Assembly (NCBI GenBank): GCA_016771945.1
Contig: QZLF01000002.1
Span: forward strand, 434,001 to 498,000
Direction of reading: 5' to 3'
DNA from: Candidatus Leucobacter sulfamidivorax
GTDB lineage: Bacteria; Actinomycetota; Actinomycetes; Actinomycetales; Microbacteriaceae
DNA length: 64,000 nt
Numbering within the stretch: position 1 is the stretch's first letter; the number at the start of each line of letters is the position of its first letter. Under the pieces are notes generated by a model, which was not told the origin of the DNA, ran no database searches, and saw nothing but the letters and a program-made list of their open reading frames with translations. The position numbers and the translations under genes are program-made. Positions 2,611 through 42,687 of this stretch are shown here, piece after piece.

Positions 2611-7745
<5,135 letters not shown>

Positions 7746-7940
7746 AATCCTCACCTCCCTTTTTTGGAAGGGGTGTGATGTTGTGGGTATCAAACGAAAC
7801 GTAACGAGGCCCCTGGGCACAGTGTGTGTGGGTGGTGTTCGCGTCTGCTTTGTGGTTCTTGACGTACGAACCACAACCCCCCCGGTGTGTTCGGGCCGTG
7901 ATGGTTCGGGTGCTGGTGCGGGGTTGGGTATGTCAATAGT

Positions 7941-8059
7941 GTTACGGTGGTTATAGCGTCAGGGAAACGCCCGGATCCTTTCCGAACCCGGAAGCTAAGG
8001 CTGACAGCGCCGATGGTACTGCACTCGGGAGGGTGTGGGAGAGTAGGACACCGCCGGAC
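7941..8059 (+). rRNA. rrf: 5S ribosomal RNA
   Basis: The 5' GTTACGGTGG and 3' CCGCCGGAC ends pair to form the terminal stem. The interior GGGAAACGCCCGG, CCGAACCCGGAAGCTAAG and GGGAGAGTAGGACA segments are the conserved 5S motifs. The length of about 119 nt is normal. A spacer of about 195 bases separates it from the 23S gene and contains nothing else recognisable. Confidence 0.96.
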
Positions 8060-28701: not shown

Positions 28702-29190
28702 ATGGATGAGCAGACCACGGCCGAGCCGATCGGCACGGCGGACCTCTACGACGAGCGCGGCGACGAGCTGCAGTCGGTGTCGACGCAGTTCCAGAGCATC
28801 GGCGGGCGCGCACGGTTCTCGGGCCCGGTGCGGACGGTGCGCTGCCACCGCGACAACGCCCTGCTGAAGTCGATCCTCGGCACCCCCGGCGACGGCGCGG
28901 TGCTGGTGGTCGACGGCGGAGGCGCGCTGGAGAGCGCGCTCGTGGGCGACATCATCGCGCAGCTCGGCGCGGACAACGGCTGGGCCGGCGTGATCGTCAA
29001 CGGCGCGATCCGGGATCGCGTCGCCATCGCCGGGCTGCCCATCGGGCTGAAGGCGCTCGGCTCCAACCCGGCGAAGTCGAGCAAGACGGGCGCGGGCGAG
29101 GCCGACGTGCCGGTGAGCTTCGGCGGGGTCGTGTTCCGCCCCGGGGCCATGCTGTGGAGCGACGAGGACGGGATCCTCGTCGAGCGCTGA
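28702..29190 (+). CDS. rraA: RraA-like protein
   Basis: The 162-residue protein has the RraA/MenG fold signatures [14 protein letters not shown] near the start, [31 protein letters not shown] and [21 protein letters not shown]. coli RraA inhibits RNase E, while related proteins are 4-hydroxy-4-methyl-2-oxoglutarate aldolases; the sequence cannot decide between the two roles here. The stop overlaps the next ATG by one base, so it is coupled to the YhhN gene. Confidence 0.88.
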
Positions 29191-29894
29191 TGGAGCGCGC
29201 GCAGACCCACCGGGCCCGGGCGGTGATCCCGTTCATCCCCTATATCGCGGTGTCGATCCTGCACGTCGTGCTGAACACCCTCGACCTGCCGGGCGGCGGG
29301 TTCGAGACCAAGCAGCTGCTCATGCCGGCGCTCGCGCTCGCGGCCGTGTGGGCGACCTGGCGCGTACGGCCCCGATCTCGCGCAGGCCTGGCGCTGATCC
29401 TGACCGCCCTGCTCTTCTCGTGGATCGGCGACGGCGCGGGACTGTTCTTCGCAGGTCTCCCGACCCTGCCGATGATGATCCTCTGCTTCGGCGTCGCGCA
29501 CCTCACCTACATCGCGCTGTTCTGGCGCGCTCCGGGCATCGCGGATCCGCGTCGCGTGCCGTGGTGGGCGGCCGTCTACGCGGTGTGGTGGATCGGGGCC
29601 ATCGCGGTGATCGGTCCGCATGCGGGCGACCTCCTGATCCCGCTCTGCGTCTACGGGCTCGTGCTCGGCGGCACTGCGGCGCTCTCGACCCGTCTCGGTC
29701 CGCTCGTGGCCTGGGGCGGGGCCTCGTTCCTCGTCTCGGACACGCTCATCGCCGTGCGCGAGTTCCTCGAGGCGCCCGACTGGGTGGGGGACTGGATCAT
29801 GCCCACCTACACGCTCGGGCAGGGGCTCATCGTGTTCGGCGTCGTCGCGGCCCTCCGGTGGGGTGCGAGACCCGTGACGGGCTCCCCGGCCTGA
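29190..29894 (+). CDS. YhhN family membrane protein (lysoplasmalogenase-like)
   Basis: The 234-residue protein has about seven to eight membrane segments with FSWIGDGAGLF and FGVAHLTYIALFW, the conserved acidic and His segments of the YhhN/TMEM86 family. Eukaryotic and some bacterial members hydrolyse the vinyl ether of lysoplasmalogens; activity here is inferred. The ATG overlaps the rraA stop (TGATG). A small hairpin at 29900-29915 follows. Confidence 0.8.
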   Translation: MERAQTHRARAVIPFIPYIAVSILHVVLNTLDLPGGGFETKQLLMPALALAAVWATWRVRPRSRAGLALILTALLFSWIGDGAGLFFAGLPTLPMMILCFGVAHLTYIALFWRAPGIADPRRVPWWAAVYAVWWIGAIAVIGPHAGDLLIPLCVYGLVLGGTAALSTRLGPLVAWGGASFLVSDTLIAVREFLEAPDWVGDWIMPTYTLGQGLIVFGVVAALRWGARPVTGSPA

Positions 29895-29899
29895 GCGGG

Positions 29900-29915
29900 G
29901 GTCTCGACGGAGACC
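29900..29915 (+). terminator. short hairpin after the YhhN gene
   Basis: GGTCTC (29900-29905) and GAGACC (29910-29915) enclose GACG, six bases after the stop codon. It is a weak terminator candidate. Confidence 0.4.
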
Positions 29916-30043
29916 TCGCCCGGTTTTCTGCTGGATGGAAAAATCGGCACCCATCCCACCCTGCGGGATGATCCTGGCAGAGGATCGAAGACGGCGCTGC
30001 GGATGACCGGCTGATCTTCGGCGCGACACGAGGAGGTCCCGGC

Positions 30044-30838
30044 ATGCAGAAACGAATGATCCAGCGGCGCCCCTCCTACGCCATCGAGTCGGTGGACAAC
30101 GCGCTCAGGCTGCTGCAACTGCTGCGGGACGAGAACGCGATCCGCGTGAGCGACGCCGCTGCCGATCTCGGGGTGTCCGTCTCGACCGCCCATCGCCTCC
30201 TCGCCATGCTCGTGTACCGCGGCTTCGCGGTGCAGGACGAGTCGAAGCGCTACTTCCCGGGCCCCGCGATCGGTGCCAGCCCCGTCTCGGTCTCGTGGAC
30301 GAGCACGCTGCGAACGGAGTCGCAGCCGCACATGGAGCGGTTGCGCGACGAACTCGACGAGACCGTGCACCTCGCGGTGCGGGTCGGCAGCAAGATGCAC
30401 TTCCTGCACACCCTGGAGTCGCAGGCCTCGGTGCGGGTGGGCGACCTCAGGGGCGCCGTGCTCGAGGCGCACGAGAGCGGCGGCGGCATCATGCTGCTCT
30501 CCGAGCTGCACGACCAGCAACTGGCTCGCATGTACGGAGCCGCGGGCGGGGGCGGCCGCCCCTCCCTGTCGAGGGTGCAGTTCGTCGAGCTCATGAAGAA
30601 CGTGACCGAGGCCCGACGCCTGGGCTACGCGATCAATCGCGAGCTCGCGGAGCCAGGAGTGGGCGCTATCGGATTCCCGTTGCGCCTCCCCTCGGGCCGT
30701 GCGATCGCGGCGCTGATGGTGGCATCCCCGATCTTCCGGCTCGAGGGACTCCTGGAACCCGAGTCGATCCAGGCCTGTCTCGATGCCGCGGCGCGGATCG
30801 ACGAGATGATCCTGGTCCAGGGCATCGACGTGAGCTGA
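30044..30838 (+). CDS. IclR-family transcriptional regulator
   Basis: The 264-residue protein has the N-terminal winged helix-turn-helix (AIESVDNALRLLQLL, then VSDAAADLGVSVSTAHRLLAMLVYRGF, about 13-60) and the C-terminal IclR effector domain with the LRDELDETVHLAVRVG and FPLRLPSGRAIAALMVASP motifs. GAGGAGG precedes the ATG. It is the first gene of the catabolic island and faces the same way as the enzymes, so it is the likely local regulator responding to the pathway substrate or an intermediate. Confidence 0.92.
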   Translation: MQKRMIQRRPSYAIESVDNALRLLQLLRDENAIRVSDAAADLGVSVSTAHRLLAMLVYRGFAVQDESKRYFPGPAIGASPVSVSWTSTLRTESQPHMERLRDELDETVHLAVRVGSKMHFLHTLESQASVRVGDLRGAVLEAHESGGGIMLLSELHDQQLARMYGAAGGGGRPSLSRVQFVELMKNVTEARRLGYAINRELAEPGVGAIGFPLRLPSGRAIAALMVASPIFRLEGLLEPESIQACLDAAARIDEMILVQGIDVS

Positions 30839-30885
30839 GACGCGTCCTCCGGCGGGGTCCCGGAACGGGCTGATTCTGGTCACTA

Positions 30886-30923
30886 GAAAAAATTTCGCGG
30901 CCGTACCTCGGAGTTCCTAACCT
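30886..30923 (+). promoter_or_regulatory. candidate promoter and operator of the catabolic operon
   Basis: A symmetric A+T-rich block GAAAAAATTTC (30886-30896) stands out in a region above 65% G+C and lies just upstream of TAACCT (30918-30923), a possible -10 about 50 bases before the monooxygenase start. The block is a plausible IclR-type operator overlapping the -35 area. TTTTC and GAAAAA at 29923-29943 upstream of the regulator form a looser version. Confidence 0.35.
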
Positions 30924-30974
30924 CATGGAAGATACCGCCGCCGAGGACGACGGCGCGATCGGAAAGGAGCCCGG

Positions 30975-32147
30975 GTGACTCTCAAACGACGTGGGAACGA
31001 CGACCATCTCCGGTTCGGGATCATGTGGCCCAACACGATGACGCAGAACATCACCTCGCGCGCCGTCGCGGACGCGAACCCCGATGTCCTTGATATCGCG
31101 AACCACATCCCGGCGGCCCGGGCGGCCGAGGCGGTGGGCTTCGACTACCTGTTCCTCGCCGACACCTACGCCGCCAACCCGCCTGCGAACATCGCGGCGG
31201 GTCACGGCGAGCCGAGGCTCTACGCGCCGATCTGGGCCGCGGCTCTGCTCGCGGCGACGGAGCACATCGGCGTGGTCTCGACCCTCCACATGCGCTACCT
31301 GCCGCCGGTGGTGATCGCCCGGCTCGGCGCGAACCTCGACGTGCTGAGCGGCGGCCGCTGGGGGTGGAACGCGGTGCCCGGGGCGAAGGCCGACGAGCAC
31401 TCGCTGTTCGGCCTCGAGGAGGAGACCGACACCGACCGTCGCTACCGCATGGCTCGCGAGGCGATCCGGGCGATCAAGGCCTTCTGGTCGGCGGGCATCG
31501 GCGAGCGCGTCGAGTTCGACGGCGAGTTCTTCAAGCTCTCCGGCGTCCTCGCCGGCCCCCGCCCGCTGCAGCGGCCCTTCCCGCCGATCTTCAACCCGGG
31601 GGTCTCACCCGCGGCCATGGACCTCATCGTGGCGGAGGCCGACTACGGCTTCACCGCGATCGTCGACGACCTCGACGAGGTCGCGGCGACGGCGCGGGCC
31701 CTCTCCGAGCGAGCGGCGGCCGCCGGCCGCGATCCGCGCGAGGTCGAGGTCGCCGGATCCATCGCGGTCGTGCTCGGGGACACCGAGGAGGCGGCGCAGC
31801 GCAAGTACCGCGAGCTGCTCGACTCGGTCGACATCGGCGCCGCAGAGGGGTTCGCGAGCTTCTTCCTCCGCTCGAGCTCCACCTATCAGCGGCTGTTCGA
31901 GGGGATGCCCAAGGAGGAGCAGGTGCGCCGCATCGGGGCGGGGGCCGGCAGCAGCGTGCTGGTCGGCACCCCGGAGCAGGTCGCGGAGCGGTTCTCACGG
32001 ATTCGCGAGGCGACCGGGGTCAGGCAGTTCCTGACGCTGCCGTTCCACTGGAGCCCCGAGGAGTTCACCGCGATGGGTACGGTGTTCGAGGGGCTCGCGC
32101 GGCGCGGCGACTGGGTGCACCCCTCCGAGCGGGGGTGGAGCTGGTGA
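30975..32147 (+). CDS. LLM-class FMNH2-dependent monooxygenase (SsuD/RutA/SfnG type)
   Basis: The 390-residue protein has the bacterial-luciferase TIM-barrel signatures: AAEAVGFDYLFLAD, VIARLGANLDVLSGGRWGWN (about 115-134), RYRMAREAIRAIKAFW, GPRPLQRPFPPIF and the C-terminal SSVLVGTPEQVAERF. Class C two-component monooxygenases of this type use reduced FMN to cleave C-S, C-N or amide bonds. No flavin reductase gene is in the island, so FMNH2 must come from elsewhere. AAAGGAG precedes the GTG at 30975. The stop overlaps the next gene's GTG. The substrate is unknown. Confidence 0.87.
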   Translation: MTLKRRGNDDHLRFGIMWPNTMTQNITSRAVADANPDVLDIANHIPAARAAEAVGFDYLFLADTYAANPPANIAAGHGEPRLYAPIWAAALLAATEHIGVVSTLHMRYLPPVVIARLGANLDVLSGGRWGWNAVPGAKADEHSLFGLEEETDTDRRYRMAREAIRAIKAFWSAGIGERVEFDGEFFKLSGVLAGPRPLQRPFPPIFNPGVSPAAMDLIVAEADYGFTAIVDDLDEVAATARALSERAAAAGRDPREVEVAGSIAVVLGDTEEAAQRKYRELLDSVDIGAAEGFASFFLRSSSTYQRLFEGMPKEEQVRRIGAGAGSSVLVGTPEQVAERFSRIREATGVRQFLTLPFHWSPEEFTAMGTVFEGLARRGDWVHPSERGWSW

Positions 32148-32935
32148 GCGGCGGGACGGAGACGGACGGGAAGACTCTGCTGAGCGTCGAAGAGCTCTCG
32201 CTCAACTTCGGCGGGCTGCAGGTGCTGAAGAACGTCACCTTCGGGGTGGAGGAGGGGCAGATCTGCGCGCTGATCGGCCCCAACGGAGCAGGCAAGACCT
32301 CCGTGTTCAACTGCGTGAGCCGCTTCTACCACCCGAGCGCCGGACGGATCCTGATGGCGGGCGACGACCTGCTGCAGCGGCCGGCGCACCGGGTCGCCGC
32401 GCACGGCATCGCGCGCACCTTCCAGAATCTCGCGCTGTTCGGCGCGCAGACCGTGTTCGAGAACGTGATGGTGGGCGCCTACCCCGTCACGAAGGCGACC
32501 ATCCTCGACGTGCTCCTGCGCCTCCCCCGAGAGCGCAGGGAGGAGCGGCGCACCGAGGCGCGCGCCTGGGAGATGCTCGAGGAGACGGGCCTCGTCGATC
32601 TCGCCGACACGAAGGTGCTCGACCTCCCGTTCGGCTCGCAGAAACGGGTCGAGCTCGCTCGGGCGCTCATGAGCGAGCCGCGGCTGCTGCTGCTCGACGA
32701 GCCCGCGAACGGCCTCTCGCACGGCGAGGTCGAGTCCCTCGCCGAGTTCATCCGCGAGGCCGCGGCACGCCTGGGCCTGACCGTGCTGCTCGTCGAGCAT
32801 CACATCGGCATGGTGCGCGCGATCTCCGACCACGTGGTCGTGCTCGACGCCGGCGAGGTGCTGGCCCAGGGCAGCCCCGACGAGGTCACGAACGATCCGA
32901 GGGTCATCAAGGCCTACCTGGGGAGCGCGGCATGA
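32144..32935 (+). CDS. Liv-type ABC transporter ATP-binding protein (LivG-like)
   Basis: The 263-residue ATPase has Walker A GPNGAGKTS (about 42-50), the LivG-specific GIARTFQNLALF, a signature variant PFGSQKRVELARALM, Walker B LLLLDEPANGLS and the HHIGMVRAISDHVVVLD H-loop region. LivG-type subunits have an extra helical insert, as seen here. GTG 32144 overlaps the monooxygenase stop (GTGA) and the stop overlaps the next ATG, so translation is coupled. It energises import of an amino-acid-, amide- or urea-like compound. Confidence 0.92.
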   Translation: MSGGTETDGKTLLSVEELSLNFGGLQVLKNVTFGVEEGQICALIGPNGAGKTSVFNCVSRFYHPSAGRILMAGDDLLQRPAHRVAAHGIARTFQNLALFGAQTVFENVMVGAYPVTKATILDVLLRLPRERREERRTEARAWEMLEETGLVDLADTKVLDLPFGSQKRVELARALMSEPRLLLLDEPANGLSHGEVESLAEFIREAAARLGLTVLLVEHHIGMVRAISDHVVVLDAGEVLAQGSPDEVTNDPRVIKAYLGSAA

Positions 32936-33657
32936 GCGAAACGAATCGGGACCTCCTGACCGTCCGGGGTCTGCACGCCGGCTACGGCGCGGTCAGGGTG
33001 CTGCGCGACATCGACCTCACCGTCGCGGCGAACGAGGTCATCGTGCTGCTGGGCGCGAACGGTGCGGGCAAGACCACCCTGATGCGGGCGCTGACCAATC
33101 TGATCCCCTGGACCGGCGAGGTCGTGTTCGACGGCGCCTCGACCTCCCGGAAGCGCACCGAGGCGCTGACGCGCCGGGGCATCGCCCACGTGCCGCAGGG
33201 CCGGGGCACCTTCGTCGAGCTCACCGTCGAGGAGAACCTGCGCGTCGGGGGCCTCGTGACGGGTTCGAAGGAGGCGCTCGAGGAGGGGCTGGAGCGCTGG
33301 TTCGCGGTCTACCCGCGGCTGGCCGAACGGCGCCGGCAGCTCGCCGGCAGCCTGAGCGGCGGGGAGCAGCAGATGCTCGCCATCGCGCGGGCGCTCATGA
33401 GTCGTCCGCGGCTGCTGCTGCTCGACGAGCCCTCGCTCGGGCTCTCGCCCATCATCACCGAGGAGCTGTTCGAGCACCTCGCGCGGCTGAGAGCCGACGA
33501 GGACATCTCGATGATCATCGTGGAGCAGACCGCAGAACTCGCGCTGGCGATGGCGGATCGCGCGCACATCCTGCGGTCCGGGGAACTGCTTCCGAGCCGG
33601 CTGGCCTCCGAGCTCAACGACGCCGAAGTGCTGCGCGAAGCCTACCTGGGCGCCTGA
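32932..33657 (+). CDS. Liv-type ABC transporter ATP-binding protein (LivF-like)
   Basis: The 241-residue ATPase has Walker A GANGAGKTT, the LivF-type IAHVPQGRGTFVELTVEENL, signature LSGGEQQMLAIARALM and LLLLDEPSLGLSPIITEELF with MIIVEQTAELALAMADRAHI. It pairs with the LivG-like subunit, whose stop overlaps its ATG by four bases. Confidence 0.92.
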   Translation: MSETNRDLLTVRGLHAGYGAVRVLRDIDLTVAANEVIVLLGANGAGKTTLMRALTNLIPWTGEVVFDGASTSRKRTEALTRRGIAHVPQGRGTFVELTVEENLRVGGLVTGSKEALEEGLERWFAVYPRLAERRRQLAGSLSGGEQQMLAIARALMSRPRLLLLDEPSLGLSPIITEELFEHLARLRADEDISMIIVEQTAELALAMADRAHILRSGELLPSRLASELNDAEVLREAYLGA

Positions 33658-33685
33658 GCCCCGAGCGGAGAGGAGGAGAAGGACC

Positions 33686-34570
33686 ATGGAACTACTGCTT
33701 CAACGGATCGTCGACGGCTTGGGCAGCGGCAGCATCTACGCGGCGCTGGCACTGGCGCTCGTCCTGGTGTTCCGCAGCACGGGAGTCGTGAACTTCGCCC
33801 AGGGAGAGATGGCGATGCTGTCGACCTATCTCATCTGGATACTCACGCTCTTCGGGCTGAACATCTGGCTGGCGCTGCTGCTCTCGATCGCGGTGTCGTT
33901 CTTCGCCGGCGCCCTGCTGGAGCGCGGCCTCATCCGCATCGTGCCGAGGGACGACCATCTGGTGATGGTGCTCGTCATGATCGGTCTCTACACCGTGCTC
34001 GGGGCGCTCGCGCTCTTCGTCTTCGGCACCGAGGGCAAGCCGGTCGAATCGCTCTTCCCCTCCGGGGGTCTCACGCTCGGCTCGGTCGTGATCCCGTTCA
34101 GCACGCTCGGAGCGATGGCGGTGCTCTTCGGCGCGAGCGGGCTGCTCTGGGCGGTGTTCCGCTTCACGAAGACGGGCCTCTCGCTCAGGGCGGTCTCGCT
34201 CAACCCCGAGTCCGCGGCGCTCGCGGGGCTGCCGCGCGGCCGACTGCTCGCGGTCGGCTGGGGCCTCGCCGCCTGCATGGGAGCCATCTCCGGCGCGCTC
34301 GTCATCAGCCTCGGTCTGTTCCTCGAACCCACGATGATGCTGCCGGTGCTGGTGTACGCGCTGTCGGCGGCGACTCTCGGCGGCTTCGATTCGCCCGTCG
34401 GCGCGGTCATCGCGGGGCTCGCCCTCGGCGTGGTGGAGAGCCTCGCGATCGGGTACATCACGTTCATCGGATCCGAACTGGCGCTGCTGGTTCCGTTCCT
34501 CGTCATGGTCGTCGTCATGCTCGTCAAGCCCAACGGCTTGTTCGGCTCGAAGAAGGTGGTGCGGGTATGA
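33686..34570 (+). CDS. Liv-type ABC transporter permease (LivH-like)
   Basis: The 294-residue permease starts with QRIVDGLGSGSIYAALALAL and has about eight membrane segments. It shows STGVVNFAQGEMAMLSTYL, SLRAVSLNPESAALAGLPRGR (the cytoplasmic loop that contacts the ATPase) and GLALGVVESLAIGYI near the C-terminus. GGAGAGGAGGAGAAGG upstream is a strong ribosome binding site, which may raise permease translation. The stop overlaps the LivM-like ATG. Confidence 0.92.
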   Translation: MELLLQRIVDGLGSGSIYAALALALVLVFRSTGVVNFAQGEMAMLSTYLIWILTLFGLNIWLALLLSIAVSFFAGALLERGLIRIVPRDDHLVMVLVMIGLYTVLGALALFVFGTEGKPVESLFPSGGLTLGSVVIPFSTLGAMAVLFGASGLLWAVFRFTKTGLSLRAVSLNPESAALAGLPRGRLLAVGWGLAACMGAISGALVISLGLFLEPTMMLPVLVYALSAATLGGFDSPVGAVIAGLALGVVESLAIGYITFIGSELALLVPFLVMVVVMLVKPNGLFGSKKVVRV

Positions 34571-35610
34571 GCGCGATGCGCGAACACAAGCGGAGCGGAT
34601 CGCGCGATCCGCGCCTGGTGCTGGCGTTCCGGGTGCTGATGGTCGTGCTGATCGTCGTGGCGCTCATCATCCCCTTCACGAACCCGCCCTACATCGTCGG
34701 CAACGTGACGCGCATCTTCATCGCCACGCTGCCGGTGCTCGGACTCAGCCTTCTCACCGGCTTCGGCGGGCTCACCTCGATCGGCCACAACGCGCTCTTC
34801 GGCGTGGGCGCCTACACCACCGCGATCCTCGCGACCACGCACGGCTGGCCCTGGTGGCTCTCGGTGCCGTTCTCGATTCTGACCGTCTTCATCGCAGGCC
34901 TGCTCGTCGGCTTTCCGTCATCGCGCATCAAGGGCGTGTTCCTCGCGGTCGTCACGCTGGCGCTCGGAGCGATGTTCCCCGCCATCATCCACCGGCTCGG
35001 CTTCATCACCGGCGGCAACATGGGCATGAAGGTGCAGCGGCTCCGGGCGCCCGAGTGGACGGGCCTCATGAGCGACCAGTGGGCCTATCTGGTGTGCCTC
35101 GCGGTGCTGCTCGTGTGCATGCTCGCGCTGCACCGGCTCACCCGCGGTCGCTTCGGCCGCGCGCTGATGTCGATCCGGGACCAGGAGACGGCGGCGGTCG
35201 CCCTCGGCGTGCGCGTCGCCTGGACGAAGACGCTCGCATTCGGCGTGAGCGCGATCTTCGCCGGGCTCGGCGGCTCCCTCTTCGTGCTGACCCAGGGCAT
35301 CATCTCGTCCGAGAACCTATACGTCACCCTCATGGGCTCGATCCAGTTCCTCGCGGCACTGCTGATCGGCGGGGCCGGCAGCCTGCTCGGTCCGCTCATC
35401 GGCACGGTGCTCGCCGAACGCCTGCCCCCGCTGCTCTCCGGAGTCGATCCCGTGCTCGCGAACGTGATCTACGGAGCCCTGCTCATCATCGTGATCCTGC
35501 TCTTCCGCGACGGGATCGCCGGCGCCCTGAGCCGCTTCTCGACCTGGCTGCTCGGGCGATGGGACGGAAGGAGGGGCGCCAAGGGGGAGCGCGAGCGGGA
35601 ACCGGAGTAG
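34567..35610 (+). CDS. Liv-type ABC transporter permease (LivM-like)
   Basis: The 347-residue permease has a basic N-terminus, about nine membrane segments and the LivM features LSLLTGFGGLTSIGHNALFGVGAY, MSIRDQETAAVALGVRVAWTKTLAFGVSA (loop that contacts the ATPase) and FLAALLIGGAGSLLGPLIGTV. The charged C-terminal tail of about 30 residues is cytoplasmic. It completes the membrane part of the importer. Confidence 0.92.
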   Translation: MSAMREHKRSGSRDPRLVLAFRVLMVVLIVVALIIPFTNPPYIVGNVTRIFIATLPVLGLSLLTGFGGLTSIGHNALFGVGAYTTAILATTHGWPWWLSVPFSILTVFIAGLLVGFPSSRIKGVFLAVVTLALGAMFPAIIHRLGFITGGNMGMKVQRLRAPEWTGLMSDQWAYLVCLAVLLVCMLALHRLTRGRFGRALMSIRDQETAAVALGVRVAWTKTLAFGVSAIFAGLGGSLFVLTQGIISSENLYVTLMGSIQFLAALLIGGAGSLLGPLIGTVLAERLPPLLSGVDPVLANVIYGALLIIVILLFRDGIAGALSRFSTWLLGRWDGRRGAKGEREREPE

Positions 35611-35706
35611 ACGCGCTCGCCGCCGGAGTCTGCGGCCGGCCCCTTCCGCAGCAGCCACCGATCACTCATCGACCCACCATCCACCACCATGCGAAGGAGC
35701 ATTCCG

Positions 35707-37044
35707 TTGAAGACAAGAACATTCCCGGCGCGGCGACTGATCCAGGCCGCCGCCATCACCGCGGTCGCGGCGCTGACGCTCTCGGCCTGCAGCGGTCGCG
35801 ACACCGGATCGAGCTCGGCGGGGGAGACCTCGCAGAACGCCGAATCGACCGCCGAGCAGATCGTCACCATGGACGACTGCATCGACTACGTCGCCTCGCC
35901 GGGCATCACGGAGGATGAGATCCTCCTCGGCTCCACCTTCCCCGACAGCGGACCCCTCGCGTCGATCGGCGAGACCAACCGGGGCATGATGGCGTACTTC
36001 AACTATCTCAACGACACCGAGGGAGGGCTCGACGGGCGCAAGATCACCCTGGTCCCCCGTGACGACCAGTACGACGCGACCCGCGCAGTCGCGAACGTCG
36101 ACGAGCTGCTGCAGAAGGACAACGTCTTCGCCATCGTCGGCGTGCAGAGCTCGGTGGGCGCCACGAGTGTCTGGGACACGCTCAACGAGCAGTGCATCCC
36201 GCTCATGATGTCGACGGTGTCGGGATCGCTGCTCGACGACCGCCTGCAGCGGCTGAACACGCTCGACGGCCTCGTGCCCTACGCCGCGGAGGCCTACGCG
36301 CTCGGTCAGTACGCGGTCGACGAGTGGGACTCGAAGAAGGTCGCGGTGATCGCCCAGAGCGGTATCTTCGGCGAGTCCTTCCTGCGCGGCCTCGAGACGG
36401 TGCTCCCGGAGAACAACGTCGAGATCGCGGGCATCGAGACCTACCAGGTGACCGATCCGACCGTGACGGCCCAGATCACGAACCTGCGCGCGACCGACGC
36501 CGACACCCTGATCGTGGTCGCCGCCGGCACCAAGTGCCCGCAGATCTTCGACGCGGTGGAGGCCGCGGGCTGGGATCCGCACATCGCGACCACCTTCACC
36601 TGCAGCAACACGACGCTCATGGGCCTGGCCTCGCCGACCGCGGTGGACGACGTCGTGAGCAGCACCTGGCTGCGGCAGCGCGAGGCCGGGGACGCCGAGT
36701 CGGACGTGTACTTCGAGGCCGTCGCGAAGTACTTCCCCGACCTCAACGCCGGGAGCGAGAACGTGGCGCTCGGCTGGGCGCAGGGCGAGGCGATCGTCGA
36801 GATCCTCCGCCAGGCTCCCGCACTCACGAGACTCGATGTGATCAACTCGGGGCTGAGCATGAAGGACGTCGAGATCCCGATGGCCGCAGACGGCGTGCTC
36901 CTCAACACCTCGGCGACCGACACGATGCCGATCGAGACCGTGCGGATCACCAGGTTCGACAGCGGCACCATGAAGTGGTCGGTCGTCGAGGGCGACAACT
37001 CCCTCGTCGAGCTCAGCGGCGTGCTGGAGAAGACGGACCGTTGA
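35707..37044 (+). CDS. Liv-type substrate-binding lipoprotein
   Basis: The start is taken as TTG 35707 because AAGGAG lies seven bases upstream; an ATG at 35689 lacks such a site and would add six residues. The signal peptide ends in a lipobox LSAC. The 445-residue protein has the type I periplasmic-binding fold with ITEDEILLGSTFPDSGPLAS and NGG-like YLNDTEGGLDGRKITLVPRDD. The Tyr/Ser contacts typical of leucine binding are not obvious, so the ligand is probably not a branched-chain amino acid. It feeds the permeases encoded just upstream. Confidence 0.9.
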   Translation: MKTRTFPARRLIQAAAITAVAALTLSACSGRDTGSSSAGETSQNAESTAEQIVTMDDCIDYVASPGITEDEILLGSTFPDSGPLASIGETNRGMMAYFNYLNDTEGGLDGRKITLVPRDDQYDATRAVANVDELLQKDNVFAIVGVQSSVGATSVWDTLNEQCIPLMMSTVSGSLLDDRLQRLNTLDGLVPYAAEAYALGQYAVDEWDSKKVAVIAQSGIFGESFLRGLETVLPENNVEIAGIETYQVTDPTVTAQITNLRATDADTLIVVAAGTKCPQIFDAVEAAGWDPHIATTFTCSNTTLMGLASPTAVDDVVSSTWLRQREAGDAESDVYFEAVAKYFPDLNAGSENVALGWAQGEAIVEILRQAPALTRLDVINSGLSMKDVEIPMAADGVLLNTSATDTMPIETVRITRFDSGTMKWSVVEGDNSLVELSGVLEKTDR

Positions 37045-37928
37045 GCGCATCGGAATCCATGGGGATCGCCTGGCGCGAGGTCATGGAGCAGTCGCGTCGT
37101 CGGGTCGTCTGGCCCGACGGCGCGGCCGTCGCCTCCACGATCGGCATCGCGCTCGAGGCCTTCGTCAATCAGTCCCAGTACCGCCTCTCGGGCAAGCCGG
37201 GCGAGCGGAACGAGTTCTCGCTCTCGTACGGCGAGTACGGGGTCAAGGTCGGGGTGTGGCGGCTGCTCGAGATGCTCGAGCGCCACGGGCTTCCGGGGAC
37301 CTTCTCCATCTCGGGCCTGCTCGCGGAGCGGCACCCGCAGGTGATCAGCGCCATCGTCCAGGCGGGGCACGACGTCGTCGGCCACGGCTGGGCGAACGAC
37401 CTCTTCCTCATCGGCGCGTCCGAGGAGGAGGAGCGCCGCATGATCCGCGACACGCTCGATGCGATCGAGCGCGCCTGCGGCGTCCGCCCCTCGGGGTGGG
37501 CGAGCCCCGCGAACTCGAGCAATGAGGGCACGAACGCCATCCTGCTCGAGGAGGGGGTCTTCTGGACCGGCGACGACGCGAGCGACGACCTGCCCTACGT
37601 CGAGCACGCCGGGACGCCGCAGGAGATCGTGATCCTGCCCAAGGTGAATCTGGCGGCGAACGACCTGATCCACTGGATCCTGTCGACGAACAGCCCGAGC
37701 GTATTCCGCGAGGGCTTCGAGGACACCTTCGCGACCATCACCCGCGAGGGTCGCGAAGGCCGGCCGCAGTGGAGCGACATCGTGCTGCACTGCCACATGG
37801 CCGGGCGGCCGGCGTTCGCGCCGACGCTGGACCGGATCCTGGGCTTCCTCGCCCGAGAGGAATCCGTATGGCACGCCACCAAGACCGAGCTGGCGGAGTG
37901 GGTGCGCGAGCAGGGGGTGACGCGATGA
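37041..37928 (+). CDS. polysaccharide-deacetylase-fold hydrolase, PuuE/cyclic-imidase-like
   Basis: The 295-residue protein (TTG 37041 overlapping the previous stop, or ATG 37059) has the NodB-type fold with FSLSYGEYGVKVGVWRLLEM and GLPGTFSISGLLAERHPQVI, typical of the PuuE group acting on cyclic ureides and imides rather than sugars. The usual metal ligands are missing: the first motif reads GIALEAF and the second GHGWANDLF rather than HSxxH. This fits the metal-independent PuuE allantoinases. The role proposed here is ring opening or amide hydrolysis in the island's pathway. ATGA overlap links it to the next gene. Confidence 0.78.
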   Translation: MSASESMGIAWREVMEQSRRRVVWPDGAAVASTIGIALEAFVNQSQYRLSGKPGERNEFSLSYGEYGVKVGVWRLLEMLERHGLPGTFSISGLLAERHPQVISAIVQAGHDVVGHGWANDLFLIGASEEEERRMIRDTLDAIERACGVRPSGWASPANSSNEGTNAILLEEGVFWTGDDASDDLPYVEHAGTPQEIVILPKVNLAANDLIHWILSTNSPSVFREGFEDTFATITREGREGRPQWSDIVLHCHMAGRPAFAPTLDRILGFLAREESVWHATKTELAEWVREQGVTR

Positions 37929-38836
37929 GCATTCCGCAGTACCGCATGCTGCCCGAGGGGCGGCTCGTCGAGGTGAACGGGGTGGAGACCTGGGTGACCG
38001 AGGCGGGGGAGGGCTCGCCCGTCGTGTTCGTCTATGGGGGGAGCTTCGGCGGCGCCGAGGCCGCGAGCGGAGCCTATGCCTGGGCCCCGCCCTTCCGCGC
38101 CTTCGGCGGGTCCCACCGCGTGATCGCCTACGACAAGCCCGGCCAGGGCTGGTCGACGAAGCCGCCGAGCCTCGCCGAGTACACCATGGGAGCGGTCGTC
38201 GACCACCTCATCGGGGTGATCGAGGCGCTGTCCCCGGGGCGGCCGGTGCATCTCGTCGGGCACTCGCGCGGCGGGTACATCGCCTGCCGCACCACCCTGC
38301 TGCGGCCCGACCTCGTGCGCTCGGTGACGCTCGTGAACAGCGGCACGCTGAGCCCCGGGGTCGGGACGAACGAGGTCGTGCTGGCGAACTGCCCGTACCC
38401 GCCCTCGCGCGAGAGCATCGCCTGGTCGTACGGCTCGTACTTCCACGACTTCGACGGGGTGAGCGACGAGTTCATATCCGAGAGCTGGAGCGTGCTGCAG
38501 AGCGACAACTACCAGGCGGCGCTCGCCGAGATCAGGCAGCACGGGCTGATGGCGGGACAGTTCCTCCCCCTGCTCACCCGCGACAAGCGCGAGACCCTGC
38601 AGTGGCTCGCCGACGGCAGACTGCAGCGCCCCACCCAGATCGTCTGGGGTCGGGACGACCGCACGGCGCTGCTCAGTCGCGGCCTCGCGCTCTTCGAATC
38701 GCTGCGCAGCAGCAACCCGGAGACCCGGTTCTCCGTGGTCGACAAGTGCGGCCATTTCCCCTACCTCGAGCATCCGGAGTGGTTCGCGGAGACGGTCGGC
38801 AGGTTCATCGGGGAGGTGGATCATGAGTGGGCATGA
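37925..38836 (+). CDS. alpha/beta-fold hydrolase
   Basis: The 303-residue protein has the full hydrolase set: oxyanion segment VYGGSFGG (about 36-43), nucleophile Ser114 in VGHSRGG, acid in VWGRDDRTALL and His in KCGHFPYLEHPEWF. The cap region (about 140-225) is large. The family includes esterases, amidases and C-C hydrolases of ring-cleavage pathways; the exact reaction is unknown. The ATG overlaps the previous stop, and the C-terminus overlaps the next gene by 14 bases. Confidence 0.85.
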   Translation: MSIPQYRMLPEGRLVEVNGVETWVTEAGEGSPVVFVYGGSFGGAEAASGAYAWAPPFRAFGGSHRVIAYDKPGQGWSTKPPSLAEYTMGAVVDHLIGVIEALSPGRPVHLVGHSRGGYIACRTTLLRPDLVRSVTLVNSGTLSPGVGTNEVVLANCPYPPSRESIAWSYGSYFHDFDGVSDEFISESWSVLQSDNYQAALAEIRQHGLMAGQFLPLLTRDKRETLQWLADGRLQRPTQIVWGRDDRTALLSRGLALFESLRSSNPETRFSVVDKCGHFPYLEHPEWFAETVGRFIGEVDHEWA

Positions 38837-39729
38837 TCGGGGCACGCTTGATCGGGGCGCGGGCGAGCTCGTAGTCCTGCTGCACGGAGGCGCCGCTGGG
38901 CAGAGCCCCTGGGCGGAGACCGGGCGCAGCTGGGAGGCGACCCGGGCCCGGCTCGAGTCGCTCGGCTACCGCTGCATCGCCCCGGACCGTCCCGGCCACG
39001 GCGCGAGCCCGGCCGAGACGATCGAGGATCTGGGCTTCGCGCGGGAGTGCGCGGCCGTGGCCGAGGCGATCCGGCAGCACGGCGGCGCCGCGCACGTCGT
39101 GGGCCACGCCGAGAGCGGGATCACCGCCCTGCTGCTCGCGCGCCGCAGTGCGCAGGAGGAGCTCGGCATCGGGGTGCTCTCGTGCACCGTGGTCGGCGGT
39201 TACGGCGCCGAGCCCACGGCCGACGGCGTCGAGCGCGTGGTGCTGAGCCACCCGCCCGAGCCTCGCTGGTCGGCGCCCTCGCAGCGCTGGGCCCTGCGGC
39301 GGCTGAGCTACGGCGGCGACGCCCTCGGCGATCGCTGCGACGACGCCCAGGCGACCCGGAGCGTGCGGACCGCCGGCGCTGCTCGAGCAGCCGGGCGCCT
39401 CCGCCCGCATCGCGGGTGACCTGCTGCGCGCGAAGGGCGATATCTTCGCCTACGCCCGCGACCACGGCTACGACGTGCCGATCTCGCTCACCTGGGGCAT
39501 GCACGATCCGCTGAGCGAGCCCCCGCGCGCGGTCGAGCTCATGAACCTGCTCGCGACGACGACGGCGCACCTCGAGCTCAACCTCGTGGACCGGGCGGGG
39601 CACTTCGCCCATCGCGAGCGGCCGGCGGAGTTCCACCGCCTGCTCGAGGGCTTCCTCAGCCGTCCCGGGCGCGCGACGAGCGCAGCCCCTGCGAACGGGA
39701 GCGCCGCGAACGGAGAGGAAGCGCGATGA
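38823..39729 (+). CDS. alpha/beta-fold hydrolase lacking the Ser nucleophile, frameshifted
   Basis: The N-terminal half runs in the frame of ATG 38823 (VVLLHGGAAGQSPWAE, APDRPGHGAS), and the C-terminal half (LLEQPGASARIAGDLLRAKG, WGMHDPLSEPP, DRAGHFAHRERPAEF) in another. One extra G near 39334 and another near 39372 would give LGDRLRRRPGDPERADRPALLEQ and a 302-residue protein, like its neighbour. The nucleophile elbow reads VGHAESG with Ala96 where Ser is expected, while the Asp and His remain. E. coli RutD, as I recall, also has GHALG there. It overlaps both neighbours. Confidence 0.75.
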
Positions 39730-40517
39730 CCGAGTCCTCGCCACTGCACGTCATGGTCACCGGGGCGGCCGACGGCATCGGCCTCGCCGCCGCCGAGCGC
39801 TACGCGCGAGCCGGTCACCGCGTGACGCTGCTCGACGTCGCCGCCGAGCGCCTGGGCGCCCGGGTCGAGGCGCTCGCCGCCGAGGGGCTCGCGGTGCGCG
39901 GCGAGGTCGCGGACCTCACCGACCCCGAGGCCGTGCGAGCCGCAGTCGCGCGTTCGGTCGAGGCTTTCGGTACGCCGCACATCGCGATCAGCAACGCCGG
40001 CATCGCGCCCTACATCGAGCTGCTGAGCTGCACGGTCGAGGAGTGGCAGTATGTCGTCGACGTGAACATGACGGGCTCCTTCGTGTTCATGCAGGCCGCG
40101 ATCCAGGCCATGATCGCCGCGGGGGTGAAGGGCGCGGTCTGCGCGACCTCCTCGGGCGCGGCGTTCCAGGGCCGGGTCGGCGGCGGGGCCTACAGCGCCT
40201 CGAAGGCCGGCGGGCTCATGATGGCCCGCGTCCTCGCGGTCGAGGCCGGTCCGCACGGGATCCGGGTGAACTCCGTCGCGCCGGGCCTCGTCGACCACGG
40301 CTACCGCGAGGGGCTCGGCGACTTCGTGCCCGCCGAGTACGCGGAGCGGGCACGCGGCTTCACCCCGCTCGCCCACGAGGCCTCGGCCGAGGACATCGTC
40401 GACGCGATCGAGTACCTGTGCTCGGAGCGGGCCGCCCACGTGACGGGCACCTATCTGCGCATCGACGGCGGGGCGAGCGTCGGTCAGTACGGCTCGCCCT
40501 GGAGCCGGGAGGAGTGA
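39726..40517 (+). CDS. short-chain dehydrogenase/reductase
   Basis: The 263-residue protein has the NAD(P) motif TGAADGIG (12-19), NAG (90-92), the catalytic Ser142 or Ser143, Tyr156 and Lys160 (YSASK) and the C-terminal GTYLRIDGG of classical SDRs. Asp37 at the end of the second strand (LLDVAA) suggests NAD preference. It probably oxidises or reduces an alcohol, aldehyde or keto intermediate of the island's pathway. The ATG overlaps the stop of the preceding hydrolase (ATGA). Confidence 0.9.
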   Translation: MTESSPLHVMVTGAADGIGLAAAERYARAGHRVTLLDVAAERLGARVEALAAEGLAVRGEVADLTDPEAVRAAVARSVEAFGTPHIAISNAGIAPYIELLSCTVEEWQYVVDVNMTGSFVFMQAAIQAMIAAGVKGAVCATSSGAAFQGRVGGGAYSASKAGGLMMARVLAVEAGPHGIRVNSVAPGLVDHGYREGLGDFVPAEYAERARGFTPLAHEASAEDIVDAIEYLCSERAAHVTGTYLRIDGGASVGQYGSPWSREE

Positions 40518-40518
40518 G

Positions 40519-42152
40519 ATGGCCGAGCAGGAGACCGCCGGCGAGGCGATTGCGCGGGCCCTGCGGGCCGCAGGCGCCGACCGCGCCTTCTCGTGCCGGG
40601 CGAGAGCTACCTGCCGGTGCTGGAGGGCATGCGCGCCCACGGCATCGAGGCGGTCGTCTGCCGCAACGAGGGCGGCGCGAGCTATATGGCGCTCGCCGAC
40701 GCGGTGCTGACAGGTCGCCCCGGGCTGGCGATGGTCACCCGCGGACCCGGAGCGGCGAATGCCATGGTCGGCGTCAGCGCCGCGTGGCAGGACGGCGTGC
40801 CGGTGGTCCTGCTCGTCGGGCTCGTCACCACCGACGAGCGCGACCGCTTCTCCTTCCAGGAGTTCGATCTGCGCGGCTGGTTCGGCACGACCTCCAAGCG
40901 GGTCTTCGTGCTCGACGCGCCCGAGCGCGCGCAGGCCGTCGTCGAAGAGGCGCTCAGAATCGCGACGAGCGGTCGCCCCGGACCGGTCGTGATCGGCCTC
41001 CCCGAGGACGTGCTGAGCGCTCGTGTCGACTCGCGCGATCCGGATCCCGCACCGATCGTGTCGAGCGGCCCCGATCCCGCGGCCGTGCTCGAGGCGGCCC
41101 GGGTGCTGGAGGGCGCCGAGCGGCCCCTCGTCCTCGTCGGGGGCAGTCGCTGGACGGCGCGGGCGAGCGCCGACCTCGCCCGCTTCGCCGAGCGGCACGC
41201 GGTTCCGGTGCTCGGCGGCTTCCGGGCCGGAGACCGACTGCCGAGCACGAGCCCGGCGAACGCGGGGTGGATCGGCTTCGGCGCGCATCCGGAGGCGTGG
41301 GGGCTGCTCGCCGACGCCGATGCGCTGCTGGTGATCGGGACCGCGCTCGGCGATGTCGCGACACGGGGCTGGAGCCTCGAACCGCCTCGCGCCACCGCCG
41401 TCATCGGCCCCGATCCGGAGCTGCGGGGCCACATCTCCCCGCCGCTCAGGCACGTCGTCGGCGATCCCGTGCGGGCGCTCGCGATCCTCGCCGATGCGGA
41501 TATCGCGTGCGGCGGAGGATGGGCGGGGCGCCTGCCGGCGATCCACGAGGCGTATCTGCGCTCGCTGCGGCCCGTGCGCCCCGGGCAGCGGCGACCGGAG
41601 GATCCGGTCCGGGTCGCCGAGGTGATCGGCGCGCTGAACGACCGGCTCGAGGAGGAGGTCACCGTCGCCTACGGCGCGGGTCAGCACTGCCTGTGGCCGC
41701 AGCGCTTCATCCCGAAGGGCCCCTTCCCCTCGGAGATCGGGCTGCAGAACGGATCGATGGGCTACAGCGTGCCGGCGGCCGTCGCCGCCTCCCTGCGGCA
41801 GCCCGAGCGCCTCGTGGTCTGCGTCGCGGGCGACGGCGAACTGCTCATGAACGGGCAGGAGCTCGCCACGGCCGCCCAGTACGGGGCCGCGATGCTGCTC
41901 ATCGTCGTCGACAACGGGAGCTACGGCACGATCCGGGACCATCAGGAGCGGCTCTTCCCCGGGCGGCGCTTCGCGGTGGACCTCAGGAACCCGGATTTCG
42001 CGGCCTACGCGCGCGCCTTCGGCGGCGAGGCGTTCCGAGTCGAGCGCTCGGGGGAGGTCGATGCCGCGGTGGCGGGTGCGCTCGCCGCCGCCCGGGTCGG
42101 AGGCATCGGGGTCGTGCACGTGCTCGCCGACGAGCTCGACATCGGGGAGTAG
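40519..42152 (+). CDS. thiamin-diphosphate-dependent enzyme (acetolactate synthase-like), frame broken by one missing base
   Basis: Three ThDP-enzyme domains are visible: the PYR domain with the catalytic Glu of CRNEGGASYMA, a central domain, and the PP domain with the metal/ThDP motif GDGELLMNGQELATAAQYG ending in VVDNGSYGT. The first 24 codons are in another frame; one extra G at 40593 gives RAFSVPGESYLPVLEGM and a 544-residue protein. Family reactions are decarboxylation or carboligation of 2-oxo acids. It is not a biosynthetic acetolactate synthase by context, since no small subunit or ilvC lies nearby. It ends the island. Confidence 0.85.
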
Positions 42153-42168
42153 GCCGTGCGCGGCCCGT

Positions 42169-42687
42169 TCAGCCGCAGGGGCGGATGAGTCCCGCGGACA
42201 TCAGCTGCGCCGCGGCCGCCTCCGCGCCGTCCTCCAGCAGCGGGCGCAGCAGAGGCCAGCTGTCGGCGAAGGCCGGATGCAGCGGATAGTCGGTCACGCG
42301 CTCGACGGGCACCCACTCGAGCGCGTGGCTCTCGGGATCGGTGATGCGGGCCTCGAAGGGGCGCGCGACGACGGCGACGACCGTCGTGTAGGTCCAGCCG
42401 CCGCGGTCGAGCACATGGCCGTAGCGCGGCAGCACCGCGTCCTCGGGCACGCCGGCCTCTTCGCCCGATTCGCGGATCGCCCCGGTCACGGCGTCCTCGC
42501 CCTCGTGACGGGCGCCGCCGGGGATGCCCCAGGTGCCGCCGTGATCACTCCAGCTCACGCGGTGCTGCAGCAGGATGCCCCGGGTCGGATCGTGCGCGAG
42601 CAGGCCGGCCGCGCCGAAGCGCCCCCAGTAGCGGAGACCGTCGGCCGCGGTCACCCATGCGTCCCCGGGGTTGCGCAGATCGCTCAT
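42169..42687 (-). CDS. NUDIX hydrolase
   Basis: The 172-residue protein has a Nudix box beginning GGARHEGEDAVTGAIRESGE at residue 57, with Gly58, Glu64, Arg72, Glu73, Glu76 and Glu77 in place. Family members hydrolyse nucleoside diphosphates linked to another moiety; the substrate is unknown. It is on the opposite strand to the island and to the ribosomal cluster, and starts with a leaderless-type promoter. Confidence 0.85.
   Translation of the reverse strand: MSDLRNPGDAWVTAADGLRYWGRFGAAGLLAHDPTRGILLQHRVSWSDHGGTWGIPGGARHEGEDAVTGAIRESGEEAGVPEDAVLPRYGHVLDRGGWTYTTVVAVVARPFEARITDPESHALEWVPVERVTDYPLHPAFADSWPLLRPLLEDGAEAAAAQLMSAGLIRPCG

Follow-up and report, generated by a model that had tools for sequence, protein, structure and literature searches.

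Positions 30044 to 42152 of the 64,000-nucleotide stretch of DNA that we analyzed from Candidatus Leucobacter sulfamidivorax, of the family Microbacteriaceae (contig QZLF01000002.1, positions 434,001 to 498,000; hereafter the window) hold twelve linked genes on the + strand, most of them tightly coupled. We tentatively read them as a dedicated catabolic operon, for which the likeliest class of substrate would be an N-heterocycle of the cyclic amide or imide type or its conjugate, a reading to which we give slightly less than an even chance. In order, the genes encode an IclR-family regulator, a luciferase-like monooxygenase dependent on flavin mononucleotide (LLM; this copy is LLM-A), the LivG, LivF, LivH, LivM, and substrate-binding protein (SBP) components of a Liv-type importer, a PuuE-like hydrolase, two alpha/beta hydrolases (ABH1 and ABH2), a short-chain dehydrogenase/reductase (SDR), and a thiamine diphosphate (ThDP)-dependent enzyme. 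A preliminary description made from the sequence alone had named these families, and every gene it named was confirmed, although it counted eleven genes where its own list also sums to twelve. The operon appears to be a real, conserved, and uncharacterized catabolic unit, and the substrate class proposed in that description (an N-heterocycle, imide, ureide, or amide) is plausible by analogy.

The gene set recurs as a unit in relatives. To locate these, contigs were scanned for two peptide patterns taken from the PuuE-like protein; of the 31 loci obtained, seven (L020 to L026) were gene-called. Genes in the relatives' loci were called with a codon-usage script, whose calls were poor on L025, L093, L096, and L098. 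Three of the seven carry the operon. An uncultured Leucobacter (L020; genome G689, 2.6 Mb), with a PuuE-like protein 97% identical to that of the window, has the genes from IclR to ABH2, where its contig ends. In a Nocardioidaceae metagenome-assembled genome (MAG; L021) and in Micromonospora sp. MA102 (L022), the order of the ten genes from LLM to SDR is conserved, with 42-64% identity for individual genes and ABH2 compared by its N part. An IclR gene adjoins both of these operons on the opposite strand (43% and 50% identity), a ThDP gene followed by an aldehyde dehydrogenase (ALDH) gene lies upstream of the operon in L022, and a class II aldolase gene follows SDR in L021. The idea in the preliminary description of a single catabolic unit with its own importer gained support. 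Judged from sequence comparison, nine of the genes are under purifying selection (dN/dS 0.025-0.18 between the window and the Leucobacter MAG L020, with ABH2, SDR, and ThDP outside the set); a gene order kept in other families together with such low values would not be expected by chance.

Rarity was assessed in samples that cover part of each group, scoring the best candidates of a first look at thresholds that exclude distant relatives. LLM-A was matched at E 1e-60 in three of 299 genomes of the family sample, namely the host genome (GP), G018, which has only the second operon described below (operon B), and G156, whose LLM is 34% identical. The PuuE-like protein was matched at E 1e-50 in one of 396 genomes of the phylum sample, GP itself. 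Likewise, the L022 PuuE-like protein (E 1e-60, 300 genomes of its family) and the L021 LLM-A (E 1e-95, 341 genomes of its family, hence 0 of 340 others) each found only their own genome. Searching two family samples with LLM-A as bait brought up no LLM-A operon that lacks PuuE, but no new operon at all either. Spread by plasmid was considered and rejected, as LLM-A had no plasmid match at E 1e-60 and the 572 plasmid records matched by the PuuE-like protein were all below 60% identity (best 33% among the 20 matches listed). The L022 binding protein had three plasmid matches of 27-32% at E 1e-40.

LLM-A (30975..32147; Bac_luciferase 1e-53) forms a clade with its L020, L021, and L022 counterparts (support 89/88) and falls short of the cut-offs of the LLM family models given here. 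The highest-scoring family is NtaA/DmoA (TIGR03860, 172.1 bits against a cut-off of 279.7), SfnG is the second-best NCBIfam match (127.5 against 382.95), and solved relatives include DszA and dimethylsulfone monooxygenase. The RutA equivalog model TIGR03612 scores 72.6 against 498.3, and identity to RutA is 30% over 193 aa. The positions of the O2 pocket reported for RutA (Thr105/Asn134; PMC10005588) and for DszA (Thr106/Asn135; PMC11134501) are T and N in all four aligned LLM-A rows and in all four rows of LLM-B, the monooxygenase of operon B. RutA Trp139 and Glu292 are not kept in LLM-A. No flavin reductase occurs among the twelve genes, as the preliminary description had noted, but its statement does not extend to the relatives, since L022 has one behind SDR and operon B of L021 and of L022 each contain one. 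GP has ten Flavin_Reduct matches elsewhere in the genome, a count that includes two apparent halves of a single gene.

The PuuE-like hydrolase (37041..37928 from a TTG start, or from an ATG at 37059; Polysacc_deac_1 7.5e-13 for the open reading frame [ORF] 36990-37928) matches solved PuuE allantoinase structures at 2e-32. The same ORF scores 124.8 bits against the allantoinase model TIGR03212 (cut-off 424.6), which agrees with the earlier view that this is not an allantoin operon. The protein groups with those of L020, L021, and L022 with support of 99/98 among the 11 rows compared, and it probably acts on a cyclic amide. HxnM is 64.2% identical to a Pseudomonas putida imidase homologue and structurally like HP0310, a protein for which PuuE is the closest characterized relative (PMC9304392, PMC3084791). 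Enzymes related to PuuE can open small cyclic imides, and the likeness reaches the window protein through the PuuE/HP0310 family only.

Downstream, ABH1 (37925..38836; Abhydrolase_1, longer ORF 37769-38836) scores 75.1 and 58.3 bits against the HsaD and BphD meta-cleavage-product hydrolase equivalogs (cut-offs 400 and 462.15) and is 26% identical to RutD (E 1e-6). ABH2 (38823..39729) is split by a frameshift into an N part (ORF 38823-39419) and a C part in the +1 frame that ends at 39729; the two parts each match the intact L021 and L022 proteins (42-44% and 59-61%). SDR (39726..40517; adh_short_C2 2.1e-48) is followed by the PRK08199/acetolactate-synthase-like ThDP gene (40519..42152; TPP_enzyme N, M, and C domains), in which the first ~25 codons from the ATG at 40519 are out of frame with the main ORF 40593-42152. 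The short N-terminal piece matches the L022 N-terminus weakly (42% over 19 aa, E 0.054). The preliminary description had noticed neither of these two breaks. Against PRK08199 (NF006052, cut-off 539), the window ORF, which lacks the out-of-frame N-terminus, scores 498.8, and the L022 homologue (46% identical) scores 600.1. The PuuE-ABH1-ABH2 trio recurs in a second cluster of GP (L019) and in an actinobacterial MAG (L023). This recurrence is the best hint that the trio may act in series on an amide ring.

The importer has the five-part Liv architecture of two ATPases, LivG (32144..32935; ABC_tran, BCA_ABC_TP_C) and LivF (32932..33657; ABC_tran 1.1e-30), two permeases, LivH (33686..34570; BPD_transp_2 2.8e-29) and LivM (34567..35610; BPD_transp_2 7.2e-35), and the binding protein (35689..37044; Peripla_BP_6 2.9e-48). 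All five score below the cut-offs of the Liv models (LivG 262.8/362, LivF 212/441, LivH 73.4/379, LivM 135.2/366, binding protein 39.7/477). The best solved relatives of the binding protein, 3sg0 and 4dqd, are two unnamed "extracellular ligand-binding receptors" that probably bind aromatic oxo acids. Leu/Ile/Val-binding homologues are close behind in the SBP profile search (4n0q at 3e-17 against 2e-19). The earlier suggestion that the protein is probably not leucine specific is favored by its distance from the leucine-type model and weakened by these close homologues.

By the cut-offs tested, the operon lies outside the Rut, allantoinase, NtaA/DmoA, and branched-chain amino acid systems. It shares with the Escherichia coli rutA-G operon an LLM oxygenase with a Thr/Asn O2 pocket, an alpha/beta hydrolase, and a catabolic operon layout, but differs in having its own Liv-type importer, PuuE-like enzyme, SDR, and ThDP enzyme. 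Among the called genes of the window, no match to RutB, RutC, or RutE was found at E 0.01 (RutF and RutG were not among the queries), in line with the absence of RutB claimed earlier and, together with the RutA score, with the claim that this is not a Rut operon. The PuuE-like protein belongs to the polysaccharide-deacetylase family, as do PuuE allantoinase and the cyclic imide hydrolases (HxnM, the P. putida imidase), but it is far below the allantoinase cut-off and in a distinct clade. The NtaA/DmoA-type monooxygenases are the best-scoring LLM family, from which LLM-A differs by its sub-threshold score and by the lack of a flavin reductase in the operon. Among N-heterocycle clusters of actinobacteria, the kpi 4-hydroxypyridine cluster of Arthrobacter IN13 encodes a flavin monooxygenase, a deformylase of the alpha/beta hydrolase type, and a ring-fission enzyme of the amidohydrolase family; as far as the available description goes, it differs in that no PuuE-like enzyme, Liv importer, or ThDP enzyme is mentioned (PMC7356986). 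The skatole, tetramethylpyrazine, and 4-hydroxypyridine clusters, as described, have other gene sets. The open-licence literature searched held no characterized equivalent gene set, consistent with the earlier claim of no known counterpart, and a search on tropane yielded no paper that fitted. By analogy, the operon may work like known LLM-initiated N-heterocycle pathways.

A second gene cluster accompanies the operon in some of these genomes. LLM-B of operon B is 48-56% identical to LLM-A and forms its sister clade (support 99/99), and the two genes start about 8 kb apart in L021 and 17 kb apart in L022. Operon B comprises an oligopeptide-type importer, LLM-B, ApbA, Amidohydro_2, M19 peptidase, M20 peptidase, flavin reductase, and SDR; families were tested on the G018 copy, and other copies were assigned by similarity. 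The GP copy (contig C1, ~394-407 kb; importer permeases by eye) has no flavin reductase between M20 and SDR. Palindrome-like TTCGTGTACGAA/GTTCGTACACGA words, seen by eye upstream of operon B in three genomes (L012:14302-14547, L022:14577-14831, and L067:11098-11467), are a possible shared operator.

We propose the following route. The IclR protein would respond to the compound, and the Liv-type importer would take up this small ring compound. LLM-A, using FMNH2 from a reductase encoded elsewhere in the genome, would oxygenate it by flavin-N5-peroxide type chemistry, after which the PuuE-like enzyme would hydrolyze a cyclic amide or imide, with HxnM and the imidase as precedents. The two alpha/beta hydrolases might then either break a C-C bond or take off a group of the acyl, formyl, or ester type; KpiB and NicD, alpha/beta hydrolases reported to be deformylases in pyridine pathways, provide the precedent (PMC7356986). 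SDR would oxidize a hydroxyl and the ThDP enzyme would decarboxylate the resulting 2-oxo acid, while operon B would handle a related or upstream form of the compound. We hold somewhat more tentatively than the substrate class itself that this is a new aerobic N-heterocycle or cyclic imide pathway of actinobacteria, in which an N5-peroxide-type LLM, a PuuE-type ring hydrolase, and tandem alpha/beta hydrolases would make up a reusable module, kept in separate operons in Leucobacter and joined in other families.

Several observations weigh against the N-heterocycle reading. No window protein reaches the cut-off of any NCBIfam family among those listed (the best 25 families for four proteins), so the substrate class rests on analogy. 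The O2-pocket residues are common among LLM rows (Asn in 12 and Thr in 10 of the 12 compared, RutA included) and mark the LLM group rather than the substrate. Because the PuuE-like protein served as bait, its presence in L020 to L022 gives no independent support, and the scan would overlook carriers that have neither of the two short peptides. No ThDP gene was called in the L021 operon, and the two operons do not always travel together: G018 has operon B alone, with LLM-B and without LLM-A, and G689 has LLM-A and a 39% identical LLM with no LLM-B at E 1e-40. In the present assembly, ABH2 and ThDP each carry a frameshift. Finally, ABH1, whose closest solved relatives are monoalkyl phthalate hydrolases, and the L021 copy of ABH2 are both closest to these enzymes and then to meta-cleavage-product (C-C) hydrolases, and the genes near the Nocardioidaceae cluster (L067) would suit an aromatic substrate as well. 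These are cupin, FAA-hydrolase, maleylpyruvate-isomerase-N, and FAD-binding genes, a set whose families resemble those of a gentisate pathway, followed by HyuA-HyuB-FeADH-aldolase.

The hydrolase relatives and the gentisate-type genes would fit an aromatic or alicyclic acid pathway without an N-ring, which we consider unlikely but a serious contender. In such a pathway the importer would take up an aromatic (oxo) acid, LLM-A would act as a Baeyer-Villiger or hydroxylating enzyme, the alpha/beta hydrolases would cut esters or C-C bonds, the PuuE-like protein would remove an N-acyl group, and the ThDP enzyme would decarboxylate an aryl 2-oxo acid. The nearest relatives of the binding protein agree with it, as does a class II aldolase that is weakly like 3,4-dihydroxyphthalate decarboxylase (95.7 against a cut-off of 200). 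It nevertheless gives the PuuE-like enzyme no clear part, and the trio is accompanied in L019 by RutA- and RutB-like genes, though these are far below the Rut cut-offs. A variant pyrimidine or ureide pathway of the Rut type, in which an amide bond of a uracil-like ring would be cleaved oxygenolytically and a ureide then hydrolyzed, would account for the O2-pocket residues common to LLM-A and RutA and for the distant similarity of ABH1 to RutD. We rate it as improbable given the low RutA score, the lack of RutB, RutC, and RutE matches, and the absence of Trp139 and Glu292 from LLM-A.

An organosulfur scavenging role, in which LLM-A would cleave a C-S bond like relatives of SfnG, DszA, or DmoA, appears a little more improbable still. 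The SfnG match and the solved relatives of LLM-A speak for it, but the SfnG and NtaA/DmoA scores are below their cut-offs, no sulfonate-type transporter occurs among the twelve genes, as the preliminary description had also stated, and the ThDP enzyme, SDR, and two hydrolases would go unexplained. A sulfonamide heterocycle was considered as substrate, given that the host comes from a consortium that degrades sulfonamides (PMC6868719), and no evidence for it was found. The slimmest chance goes to a decaying acquired cluster, with both frameshifts real and the pathway dead in this strain. The frameshifts and the rarity of the gene set in the family and phylum samples would be expected of decay, but the dN/dS values of the nine genes compared with L020 would not, and ABH2 is intact in L021 and L022 and ThDP in L022. 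Moreover, the host genome is a hybrid Oxford Nanopore (ONT)/Illumina metagenome assembly polished with Pilon (PMC6868719), in which some indels may still have survived.

If the N-heterocycle reading is right, the twelve genes, which include an importer and a regulator of their own, offer a testable unit for a class of compounds whose degradation has been little mapped, and PuuE-ABH1-ABH2 would be a marker trio for finding sister pathways. The substrate could be relevant to pollutant breakdown given the consortium origin of the host (PMC6868719), a link that is only circumstantial.

The operon sits between a YhhN gene (29190..29894, + strand; Pfam YhhN) and a Nudix hydrolase gene (42169..42687, - strand), both outside it. 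The Nudix gene has a match in all 41 genomes of the genus search, GP included, and the regions of nine of the other 40 were fetched for comparison. YhhN and Nudix are neighbors with nothing called between them in four of the nine (L088, L089, L091, and L098), three other genes lie between them in L097, about 4.3 kb separates them in L096, the left neighbors differ in L090 and L092, and the gene call is poor in L093. These comparisons mark the space between YhhN and Nudix as a variable site in Leucobacter, empty in some genomes and occupied by different genes in others. The L020 contig starts within this left flank as well (1,200 nt at 89%) and ends before the right boundary, so the left boundary of the operon is shared by the two Leucobacter. 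The term "island" used in the preliminary description is justified by insertion at a variable site, but not by mobility genes (none among the twelve), long terminal repeats, or deviant GC content. Comparison of the ends (29801-30060 against 42121-42400) gave no direct repeat of 10 nt and one 10-nt inverted match, and GC is 70.5% in the operon and 71.5% and 72.6% in the flanks. The idea that the island had cut the Nudix gene short, suggested by its 172 aa here against 296-302 aa in five congeners, was dropped because short forms also occur without the operon (171 aa in L097; matches to residue 168-170 in G1014 and G1027, in frames of 174 and 190), and these three regions had no blastn match to the operon.

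The overlapping junctions given in the preliminary description (GTGA, ATGA, and TTGA) were borne out: GTGA at LLM/LivG (32144-32147), ATGA at LivG/LivF (32932-32935), LivH/LivM (34567-34570), PuuE/ABH1 (37925-37928), and ABH2/SDR (39726-39729), and TTGA at SBP/PuuE (37041-37044) only with the TTG start. ABH1 and ABH2 overlap by 14 nt, and gaps separate IclR from LLM (136 nt), LivF from LivH (28 nt), and LivM from SBP (78 nt). The regulator gene (30044..30838; IclR_C 3.2e-22, HTH_IclR 2.1e-12) has homologues adjoining the operon in L020, L021, and L022. Between it and the LLM gene (30839-30974), TTCTGGTCACTAGAA is kept in L020 despite differing neighboring bases and is, by eye, a possible IclR-type site. 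TTTC-N8..12-GAAA as an operator shared by the operons was rejected, as it occurs upstream of IclR in the window and L020 only, with two matches elsewhere among the 14 sequences scanned, which is too few.

Neighboring genes suggest where the products go, for which adjacency is weak evidence. Beside the Micromonospora operon, a gamma-aminobutyrate (GABA) aminotransferase scores above its cut-off, and a glutarate-type CoA-transferase and an acyl-CoA dehydrogenase score below theirs. A Hyu-type set similar to that of L067 lies on GP contig C3 at 15-25 kb (aldolase 64% and ALDH 39% identical to the relatives; HyuAB by eye). The second trio cluster of GP (L019:1899-16684; contig C1, ~761-776 kb) also holds a RutB-like hydrolase (28.6% to RutB, E 9e-14; RutB model 46.8 against 377.95, biuret hydrolase 46.7), a RutA-like LLM (31% to RutA over 350 aa; RutA model 156.6 against 498.3), a second PuuE-like gene, and a ribose-type importer (by eye). 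In L023 (5305-12658), two sets of a PuuE-like and two alpha/beta hydrolase genes stand about 2 kb apart, with the trio only.

A third LLM cluster of GP (C1 ~355-368 kb; L010, L011) contains IclR, a ribose-type importer (by eye), ThDP, LLM-C (37%), ALDH, and class II aldolase genes, and is also present in the Leucobacter genome of L020 (G689:C212; L070). In L071:7146-14969 (GP C3 ~212-220 kb), SDR, StyA-like monooxygenase (by eye), and flavin reductase genes lie near an 803-aa FAD/old yellow enzyme (OYE) fusion. The fusion resembles 2-aminobenzoyl-CoA monooxygenase/reductase, and the locus could serve indole or anthranilate breakdown. L014:10836-19737 (GP C3 ~26-35 kb) carries ALDH, ferredoxin reductase, ferredoxin, SDR, phosphoenolpyruvate (PEP)-synthase-like, and P450 genes, by eye like a phosphorylating p-cresol pathway. 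ARAGORN found no tRNA across the whole window, which holds 16S-23S-5S rRNA genes at 2611-8059.

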